From contig NZ_QMFY01000023.1 of NCBI RefSeq assembly GCF_003286915.1, positions 1 to 64,000 on the forward strand: a stretch of DNA of 64,000 bases, written 5' to 3'. Positions within the stretch are counted from its first letter, which is position 1, and the number at the start of each line of letters is the position of its first letter. Made by a program: the position numbers and the translations under genes. Source of the DNA: Pseudochryseolinea flava (GTDB lineage Bacteria; Bacteroidota; Bacteroidia; Cytophagales; Cyclobacteriaceae). The notes under the pieces are model-generated. The model was not told the DNA's origin. It ran no database searches and was given only the letters and a program-made list of their open reading frames with translations. Positions 57,700 through 60,672 of this stretch are shown in pieces.

Positions 57700-59844
57700 A
57701 TGAAACCGACTGTAATAACCAAGACATGTAAGCTACCAGATGGCCGCGAAATTACCCTAGAGACTGGAAAACTAGCCCGTCAAGCTGATGGCTCTGTTGT
57801 GTTGAGGATGGGTAACACAATGCTCCTTGCCACGGTAGTGTCTGCGCAAGATGCCAAAGAAGGCACTGACTTCCTCCCGCTATCTGTCGATTACCAAGAA
57901 AAATTCGCGTCAACAGGTAAAGTGCCTGGTGGCTTTTTGAAACGTGAAAGCAAACTTTCTGACTACGAAGTGTTGATTAGCCGTTTGGTAGACCGTGCCA
58001 TTCGCCCGTTGTTTCCGGACGACTATCATGCCGACACGCAAGTAATGATTTATCTCATCTCCGGTGATGAAAATGCTCTCCCTGATGGGTTGGCTGCCTT
58101 CGCGGCTTCTGCTGCGCTTTCTGTTTCAGATATTCCTTTTGGAGGACCGATCTCAGAAGTACGTGTGGCAAGAATCGATGGTAAGTTTGTGATCAATCCA
58201 ACGATGAAGCAGAAAGAGTCTGCCGATATCGATTTGATCGTAGCCGCATCTATCGAAAACATCTTGATGGTTGAAGGCGAAATGAAGGAAGTGAGCGAGC
58301 AAGATATGCTTGAAGCTTTGAAAATAGCGCACGAAGCCATTATCGAACAATGCAAAGTTCAGATCGAATTTTCAAAAGAAGCTGGCAAGACTGAGAAGAG
58401 AACCTATAGCCACGAGAATAAAGACGAAGCGCTCAAAAAAGAACTCTTCGATAAATATTATCCGCAGGTGTATGGCGCAGCACGTCAATTGCTCACAAAC
58501 AAAAAGGAGCGTTCTTCGGCGCTCGGCAAAGCCCTTGACGAATACCTCGAGTCATTGCCTGAGGATACAACCGTGGATAAGGTTCTTGTTAAGAAATACT
58601 ACAAAGATATTTTGAAGAAGGCATGTCGAGACCTCGCACTTAACGAAGGTCTTCGCCTCGACGGTCGTAAAACACGTGAGATCAGACAGATTTGGTCTGA
58701 GGTGGATTATCTTCCATCAACGCACGGTTCTGCAATCTTTACACGCGGTGAGACGCAGTCTTTGACAACCGTTACACTTGGAACCAAGCTCGACGAGCAG
58801 ATGATCGACGGCGCAATGATTTCAGGTTCTAGCAAGTTTATCCTTCATTATAACTTCCCAGGCTTCTCAACAGGTGAGGTAAAACCTAACCGTGGTCCGG
58901 GTAGAAGAGAAGTAGGTCACGGTAACCTTGCGTTCCGTGCGCTGAAGCAAGTGCTTCCTGCTGACGAGAAAAATCCATACACAATCCGTGTCGTTTCTGA
59001 TATCTTAGAATCCAATGGTTCATCATCGATGGCAACTGTTTGTGCAGGATCACTTGCGCTGATGGATGCTGGTGTTCCTGTTAGTGGACCTGTTTCAGGT
59101 ATCGCGATGGGTATGATCTCTGATAGCAGCACAGGTAAATATGCAATTCTTTCTGACATCCTTGGCGATGAAGATCATCTCGGCGATATGGACTTTAAAG
59201 TTACCGGAACTGAGAAGGGGATCACGGCATGTCAGATGGACTTGAAAGTAGATGGTCTTACATACGCTGTGTTAGAAGAGGCATTGCTTCAAGCGAAAGA
59301 AGGAAGACTTCATATTTTGAACGAAATGAAGAAGACCTTATCGCAATCTAGAAACGATCTTAAACCTCACGCGCCACGTGCTGAAACTGTCATCATTGAG
59401 AAAGACATGATCGGTGCGGTAATCGGCCCAGGTGGTAAAGTGGTTCAAGATATCCAGAATACAACGGGTGCAACGGTAGTTATCGAAGAGGTAAACAACA
59501 AAGGCGTTGTGAACGTATTCGCGAGTAGCAAAGAGATCATGGATGCAGCACTTCGCCGCATCAAGAATATCGTTGCCGTACCAGAAGTTGGTGAAGTATA
59601 TGAAGGTAAGGTGAAGTCAATTATGCCATTTGGTGCATTTGTTGAATTCATGCCAGGGAAAGATGGTTTGCTTCACATCTCTGAAATTAAGTGGGAACGC
59701 CTCGAAACGATGGAAGGTGTGCTTGAAGTAGGCGAAGAAGTGAAAGTTAAACTTATTGAAGTAGATAAAAAGACTGGTAAATTCCGCTTGTCTAGAAAGG
59801 TGTTGATTCCACGTCCACCTAAGCCGGAAACTACTCAAGCTTGA
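57700..59844 (+). CDS. pnp: Polyribonucleotide nucleotidyltransferase (PNPase)
   Basis: A 714-residue 3'-5' phosphorolytic exoribonuclease. Two RNase PH-like domains (about 10-235 and 325-560) are followed by KH (about 565-625, [18 protein letters not shown]) and S1 (about 630-705, [20 protein letters not shown]) domains. The phosphate-binding and metal-binding GEDFD-type region appears as [17 protein letters not shown]. Full length and intact. It lies in the rpsO-pnp-sigma cluster. Confidence 0.97.
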
Positions 59845-59917: not shown

Positions 59918-60622
59918 ATGAGACCGTTAAAGATCAGTAAACAGATCACGAATCGCGAAAGCCAATCGCTTGACAAGGGGCTTCAAGAAATTGAAAAAGT
60001 CGATCTCCTTGCGCCTGAGCAAGAAGTTCACCTGGCGAAACGAATAAGAGAAGGCGATCAAGTAGCGCTCGAAAAACTAACAAAAGCAAATCTGCATTTT
60101 GTTGTCTCAGTTTCTAAACAATATCAAAACCAAGGATTAACGCTTGGTGACAATGAAGGTAATCCGGGCCTCATTAAGGCTGCACAGCGGTTTGATGAAA
60201 CACGCGGTTTTAAGTTGTTCATCTCCTTTACGGTATTGTGGATTCGGCACTTAACTACGGCCGAAGTGTTAGATACCATGAAGATCTCCGTTCGACACGT
60301 CTCCATGGATGCCCCCTTTATCCAAGGTGAGGAAAATAGTTTGCTCGATATTCTTACGAACGATAGTGAAGAAATACCTGATTCACTGCCGGGAGACTCC
60401 CTGAGAGTCGAGGTGAAACGTGCATTGTCGACGTTGACAAAGCGGGAAGGAGATGTGGTCGTGCGCTATTTTGGTCTACATGGTGAACACGCGCTTCCCT
60501 TAGAAGAAATTGGCGAAAAATTCAAATTAACACGCGAACGTGTTAGGCAAATCAAAGAAAAGGCAATCAGAAGATTACGGCATACATCAAGAAGAAAAGC
60601 TTTGAAACTCGACTTAGGATAG
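59918..60622 (+). CDS. Sigma-70-family protein with deleted region 2.4-3
   Basis: A 234-residue homologue of the Bacteroidota primary sigma factor (RpoD/SigA); the ATG at 59918 begins [20 protein letters not shown], the usual N-terminus. An upstream in-frame GTG at 59864 is in the palindrome and less likely. Region 1.2 and the start of region 2 are well preserved. Region 2.1/2.2 lacks two residues in the GDLINEGN motif (GDNEGN) and has NPG for NLG. Region 2.3 reads [11 protein letters not shown] instead of FISYAVWWIR, with an extra residue and one Trp lost. Directly after WIR (residue 110) about 50 residues are missing; the chain resumes at [12 protein letters not shown] (113). Region 4 is intact ([22 protein letters not shown]). 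The frame is open throughout. Expected: core binding may remain, -10 melting and recognition should not. It is a paralogue or decaying copy; the functional RpoD must lie elsewhere. Confidence 0.85.
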
Positions 60623-60647
60623 AATATGATTTTTTAGATATTTTTAG

Positions 60648-60672
60648 GGTCTCGTCTGCGAGGCCTTTTATT
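60648..60672 (+). terminator. Rho-independent terminator after the sigma gene
   Basis: GGTCTCG (60648-60654) and CGAGGCC (60659-60665) form a 7-bp stem with one T-G pair, TCTG loop, and TTTTATT downstream. It ends the sigma transcript before trxB. Confidence 0.75.

Follow-up and report, generated by a model that had tools for sequence, protein, structure and literature searches.

Does the shortened rpoD homologue beside pnp in Pseudochryseolinea flava still serve the cell, or is it what is left of a primary sigma gene that has been replaced? Few genes are as strongly conserved as that of the primary sigma factor, and the frame in question lies in the window (the whole 64,000-nt stretch of contig NZ_QMFY01000023.1 that was analysed) at exactly the place where an intact copy would be expected.

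The pnp locus and the descent of the truncated gene

The following features define the locus:

57700..59844, plus strand: pnp, the single full-length copy in the genome
59850..59904, plus strand: imperfect palindrome in the pnp-rpoD spacer with GGAACTA in its middle (folding z score, spacer comparison)
59918..60622, plus strand: truncated rpoD/sigA open frame of 234 aa, grouped by the tree with pnp-locus rpoD

The open reading frame and its translation agree with the coordinates and the reading given by the initial annotation. The frame starts 73 bases 3' of pnp, trxB is the next gene downstream, and a terminator-like hairpin is located 3' of the frame (60646..60667, plus strand); a GGTCTC..GAGACC stem resembling this hairpin is visible by eye after rpoD in relatives. 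The initial annotation had named this site as the normal place of rpoD in the phylum, and indeed, of 80 loci taken from named genomes, 65 have rpoD directly 3' of pnp; at the other 15, rpoD does not directly follow pnp or the locus ends before it. One locus (L048), titled as a Bifidobacterium breve MAG, has a Bacteroidota-type pnp-rpoD arrangement and is probably mislabelled or derived from a mixed bin.

All six same-genus genomes (G001-G006) carry rpoD at the pnp locus. Five of these genes are full length and encode identical proteins, despite a saturated synonymous distance between some of them, and the sixth (G004) is present in two pieces at contig ends (residues 1-101 and 104-287). The order lptG-rpsO-pnp-rpoD-trxB-bshB is complete in three of the relatives (G001, G002 and G006), and contig ends break it in G004 and G005; in G003 and G004 the interval separating rpoD from bshB yielded no match to trxB. 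Among the named genomes, the loci nearest to this one belong to Cytophagales.

The truncated protein is 79-82% identical to the genus pnp-locus orthologues over the kept parts, and it shares both its locus and its two ends with Bacteroidota RpoD/SigA (sigma-A). In the tree it falls into the pnp-locus rpoD group, on a branch of length 0.30 whose exact placement inside that group the tree leaves unsettled, and apart from 16 genus paralogues (support 97/95). These paralogues, C46, C22 and their relatives, belong to the same family, but they form a separate tree group, are full length and retain nearly all invariant columns. Judged by tree and synteny, the truncated gene descends from the pnp-locus primary sigma gene, in line with the derivation that had been proposed.

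Loss of the -10 reader and the state of the remaining regions

Length changes were counted against the genus pnp-locus orthologues, and residue numbers follow these and the consensus; region names are those in general use for sigma-70.

59918..60151, plus strand: regions 1.2-2.1 (consensus residues 1-78), mostly kept, with Y21G, G26E and R60H (alignment, profile score)
60152..60250, plus strand: regions 2.2-2.3, damaged, with an inserted Leu, Y105F, A106T, W108L and Q112H (alignment, profile score)
60248..60253, plus strand: junction of the 153-bp deletion (51 codons, residues 113-163; alignment)
60251..60421, plus strand: region 3 tail with the GEENSLLD stretch, G209 lost (alignment)
60422..60619, plus strand: region 4 with the helix-turn-helix, none of 15 invariant columns changed (PF04545, profile score)

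The protein differs from the genus orthologues by four length changes, three of which had already been recognized from the sequence. The deletion of about 50 residues after the WIR of region 2.3 proved to comprise 51 residues and to remove the end of region 2.3, region 2.4 and most of region 3; the two residues missing from GDLINEGN are L79-I80; and the additional residue in region 2.3 is a Leu between K101 and F102. The fourth, the loss of G209, had been overlooked. Each change is a multiple of three, so that the frame does stay open as described, with no frameshift or premature stop in 234 codons. In addition, the first Trp of the W108-W109 pair is replaced by Leu, which accounts for the reported loss of one of the two Trp residues that help to melt the -10 element. 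A primary sigma factor comprises a region 2 that includes the -10 recognition part 2.4, and this the truncated protein lacks.

The remaining regions were scored, together with the 16 paralogues, with profiles trained on 79 rows from named genomes. Regions 1.2-2.1 reach 152.3 bits, lower than 15 of the 16 paralogues. Sigma factors contact the core mainly through region 2.2, and the motif of this region has changed from GDLINEGNLGL to GDNEGNPGL by the loss of two residues and the gain of a proline; regions 2.2-2.3 score 68.6 bits, and each of the 16 paralogues scores higher (95.2-108.6). The region 3 tail, including the GEENSLLD stretch that we take to be region 3.2, the sigma finger, scores 93.2 bits, with seven of 16 paralogues higher. 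Region 4 reaches 121.5 bits, which is inside the paralogue range of 92.6-135.5 (11 of 16 higher).

The family models point in the same direction. In Pfam, region 1.2 and region 4 (PF04545, 60.7 bits against a cut-off of 24.1) exceed their cut-offs, and Sigma70_r2 (PF04542, 17.5 bits against 24) and Sigma70_r3 do not; the window copy is missing from the 52 Sigma70_r2 matches of its genome. The NCBIfam cut-offs for RpoD are not reached (NF006666, 152.6 versus 572; TIGR02393, 128.3 versus 354), and the sigma70-ECF superfamily model TIGR02937 is the sole family over its cut-off among the 25 of 47 families listed. A weak structure model that carries little weight (mean pLDDT 60.9, pTM 0.37) is most confident in the region-4 part, with block means of 62-79 for residues 161-230 and 48 for the last four residues.

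The initial annotation was thus right about a normal region 4, which may still be able to bind. Its description of the core-binding parts as intact, however, does not hold for region 2.2, because the profile scores of regions 2.2-2.3 are low and Pfam agrees; the broken motif, the insertion and the altered invariant columns in region 2.3 speak against it as well.

Substitution pattern and upstream spacer

In 233 aligned columns, the truncated protein carries 41 substitutions. Six of the 80 columns that are unchanged in all 104 other alignment rows are altered (Y21G, G26E, R60H, Y105F, W108L and Q112H). Tested singly, 15 of the 16 paralogues alter none to two of these columns with 30-70 substitutions, and one very divergent paralogue (G003_C6) alters six with 83 substitutions.

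The dN/dS ratio that had been suggested as a check is uninformative, because dS is saturated between the truncated gene and the six orthologues compared (G004 not among them), and for this reason a neutral simulation was used, in which 41 replacements were drawn from three proxy ancestors. Under pure neutrality, 2.2-2.9 stops would be expected and none is observed (P 0.04-0.12); about 14 (13.7) invariant columns would be hit, as opposed to the observed six (P at most 0.0075); and the mean BLOSUM62 score of the changes would be -0.33 to -0.46, as opposed to 0.0 (P 0.03-0.09). The chance that four length changes all keep the frame is 0.012 if one third of indels do so. It should be noted that these probabilities overstate the case, because the frame was picked for being open. 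Thus, pure neutral decay from the first change onwards is disfavoured by the substitution record. By the same measure the changes are harsher than those of working paralogues, eight of which have mean BLOSUM62 scores of 0.15 to 0.47.

The two halves of the protein are not affected alike. In residues 163-287, 24 changes leave all 20 invariant columns untouched (P 0.0085), and in residues 1-112, 17 changes alter six of 60 (P 0.071), a hint that the C-terminal part may have been kept under more constraint. The pattern fits a two-step history without any new function, in which the gene was relaxed but working at first and was retired later, and a retained function would fit it too.

The spacer upstream of the gene has also been rewritten. 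In all six same-genus relatives (L121-L123 and L125-L127), GGAACTA is followed 11 nt later by TATATTGT; in seven more distant spacers, GGAACTA is present in five and TATATTGT in three. The pair with its 11-nt distance was also noted upstream of rpoD in L043, L046 and L153. A Flavobacterium study (PMC9723704) reports a TAnnTTGY box beside the sigma-A box TAnnTTTG; the promoter-like TATATTGT fits this TAnnTTGY form. In the window spacer, GGAACTA is kept and TATATTGT is gone.

GGAACTA here lies within the imperfect palindrome, whose predicted hairpin has a folding energy of -32.6 kcal/mol (z -6.2); for the same spacer in L043 and five same-genus rows, z lies between -0.5 and +1.9, and the relatives compared lack such a palindrome. 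The hairpin has no T tract and was not listed by the terminator scan, and a strict palindrome pattern without mismatch had no match in the window. One arm was considered as a repeated element and rejected, as the genome holds its sequence exactly once. The hairpin could have arisen by a quasi-palindrome mutation; alternatively, the palindrome may be an operator.

Other rpoD-type copies and the probable fate of the original gene

If the gene at the native locus cannot supply a primary sigma factor, a full-length copy must lie elsewhere, as the initial annotation had concluded, and a search of the genome (6.54 Mb, 48 contigs, 99.27% complete) recovered two, named here after their contigs, C46 (287 aa) and C22 (289 aa). 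C46 has all sigma regions, with none of the 80 invariant columns changed, and from F100 to S143 its sole difference from the pnp-locus orthologues in the alignment is L115M. Its nearest relative among the analysed copies is a G003 paralogue (92.3%), which sits about 29 kb from the intact pnp-locus rpoD of G003; no shared flanking genes were seen between C46 and 12 other rpoD-type loci. The tree branches of C46 and its G003 sister are 0.042 and 0.044, respectively, and since no slowing of C46 relative to this sister is seen, a primary role of C46 is something that we only infer. Besides the pnp-locus copy, each relative (G001-G006) has one to five further RpoD-type genes, full length or split by contig ends, and G003 has six full-length genes in all; therefore, RpoD-type redundancy in the genus probably predates the damage at the pnp locus.

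Decayed copies were also observed. This genome contains the 5' part of a further rpoD-type gene, in which two TGA codons occur (G000 C22:98158-98365; L132 4171-4366), and an RpoD-type paralogue of G003 is split by a frameshift near residue 174 (C7:491938-492797; L140 2939-3798). They resemble the truncated gene in that integrity has been lost within the same genus, but they carry a frameshift or stops, whereas the frame in the window is open.

The reading that we consider probable is that the truncated gene is the original primary sigma gene of the lineage, retired after takeover by a paralogue and now in early decay. The original rpoD/sigA would have occupied the ancestral place between rpsO-pnp and trxB at a time when the genus already had full-length RpoD-type paralogues. 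C46, complete in regions 2.4 and 4, would have taken over the housekeeping role or already have shared it, constraint on the old gene would then have fallen, the promoter-like box would have been lost, and the 153-bp in-frame deletion would have taken out the -10 reader, so that the product, if made at all, would be unable to work as a sigma factor. Towards decay weigh the uniqueness of the truncated form, which at E 1e-60 or better is confined to the window, one among 390 genomes of the family sampled from a larger group, together with the loss of the box and the damage to region 2.2; residues essential for the ancestral function are gone, in region 2.4 and in the invariant columns, and other RpoD-type copies have decayed in the genus. 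A further search for the truncated form, in 148 genomes, covered the best matches listed. An early pseudogene, the last of the options in the initial annotation, has thus become the likeliest one. Nevertheless, the open frame without a stop, changes that avoid invariant columns and are somewhat milder than neutral ones, and a normal-looking region 4 argue against decay and leave room for a retained function.

Such a function might be that of a sigma-derived regulator kept by selection, which would use the flap and -35 contacts of region 4, perhaps together with region 3.2. Since it is predicted neither to read nor to melt the -10 element, it would act as a competitor or modulator of the full sigma factors. 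A frame that survived four length changes, the untouched invariant columns of residues 163-287, the score of region 4 and the confidence of the weak model in that part are what such a regulator would lead one to expect, but the form occurs in one genome among 390, has lost TATATTGT and has a broken core-binding motif, and an equal pattern results if most changes preceded the retirement of the gene; we therefore regard a kept regulator as rather doubtful. A more specific version appears unlikely: here the primary sigma factor would have become, at its native locus, a small protein that has regions 4 and 3.2 but no -10 reader and that targets RNA polymerase, with housekeeping transcription passing to a paralogue. 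It is very improbable that the genome still has a full-length pnp-type rpoD which the assembly lacks, the window copy being surplus: the assembly is in 48 contigs and breaks can fall at paralogous rpoD genes, as the pieces in G004 illustrate, yet the six rpoD-type matches in this nearly complete genome include no further full copy and none at a contig end, and the single full-length pnp adjoins the truncated gene. An artefact of assembly or sequencing is hardly credible, because one assembly error cannot explain a rewritten upstream region and, distributed over the gene, 41 substitutions and three further length changes that keep the frame.

An example of a sigma factor whose domains are not all on one chain is the split sigma SigO-RsoA of Bacillus subtilis (PMC10141391), in which two partner proteins complete each other; the truncated protein is considered here by itself. 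Compared with Bacteroidota RpoD/SigA, it stands apart by the loss of residues 113-163, the damaged regions 2.2-2.3 and the altered promoter-like box. In titles and abstract beginnings of the open-access literature searched, neither an RpoD-derived protein without region 2.4 nor a paralogue that replaces a primary sigma gene was found described. A primary sigma gene that is broken at its own locus while its paralogues are intact constitutes a natural test of a change of the main sigma factor, and the question of which rpoD copy is essential becomes directly testable. Even without a new task for the truncated protein, it would be unusual in nature for a primary sigma gene to give way to its own paralogue.
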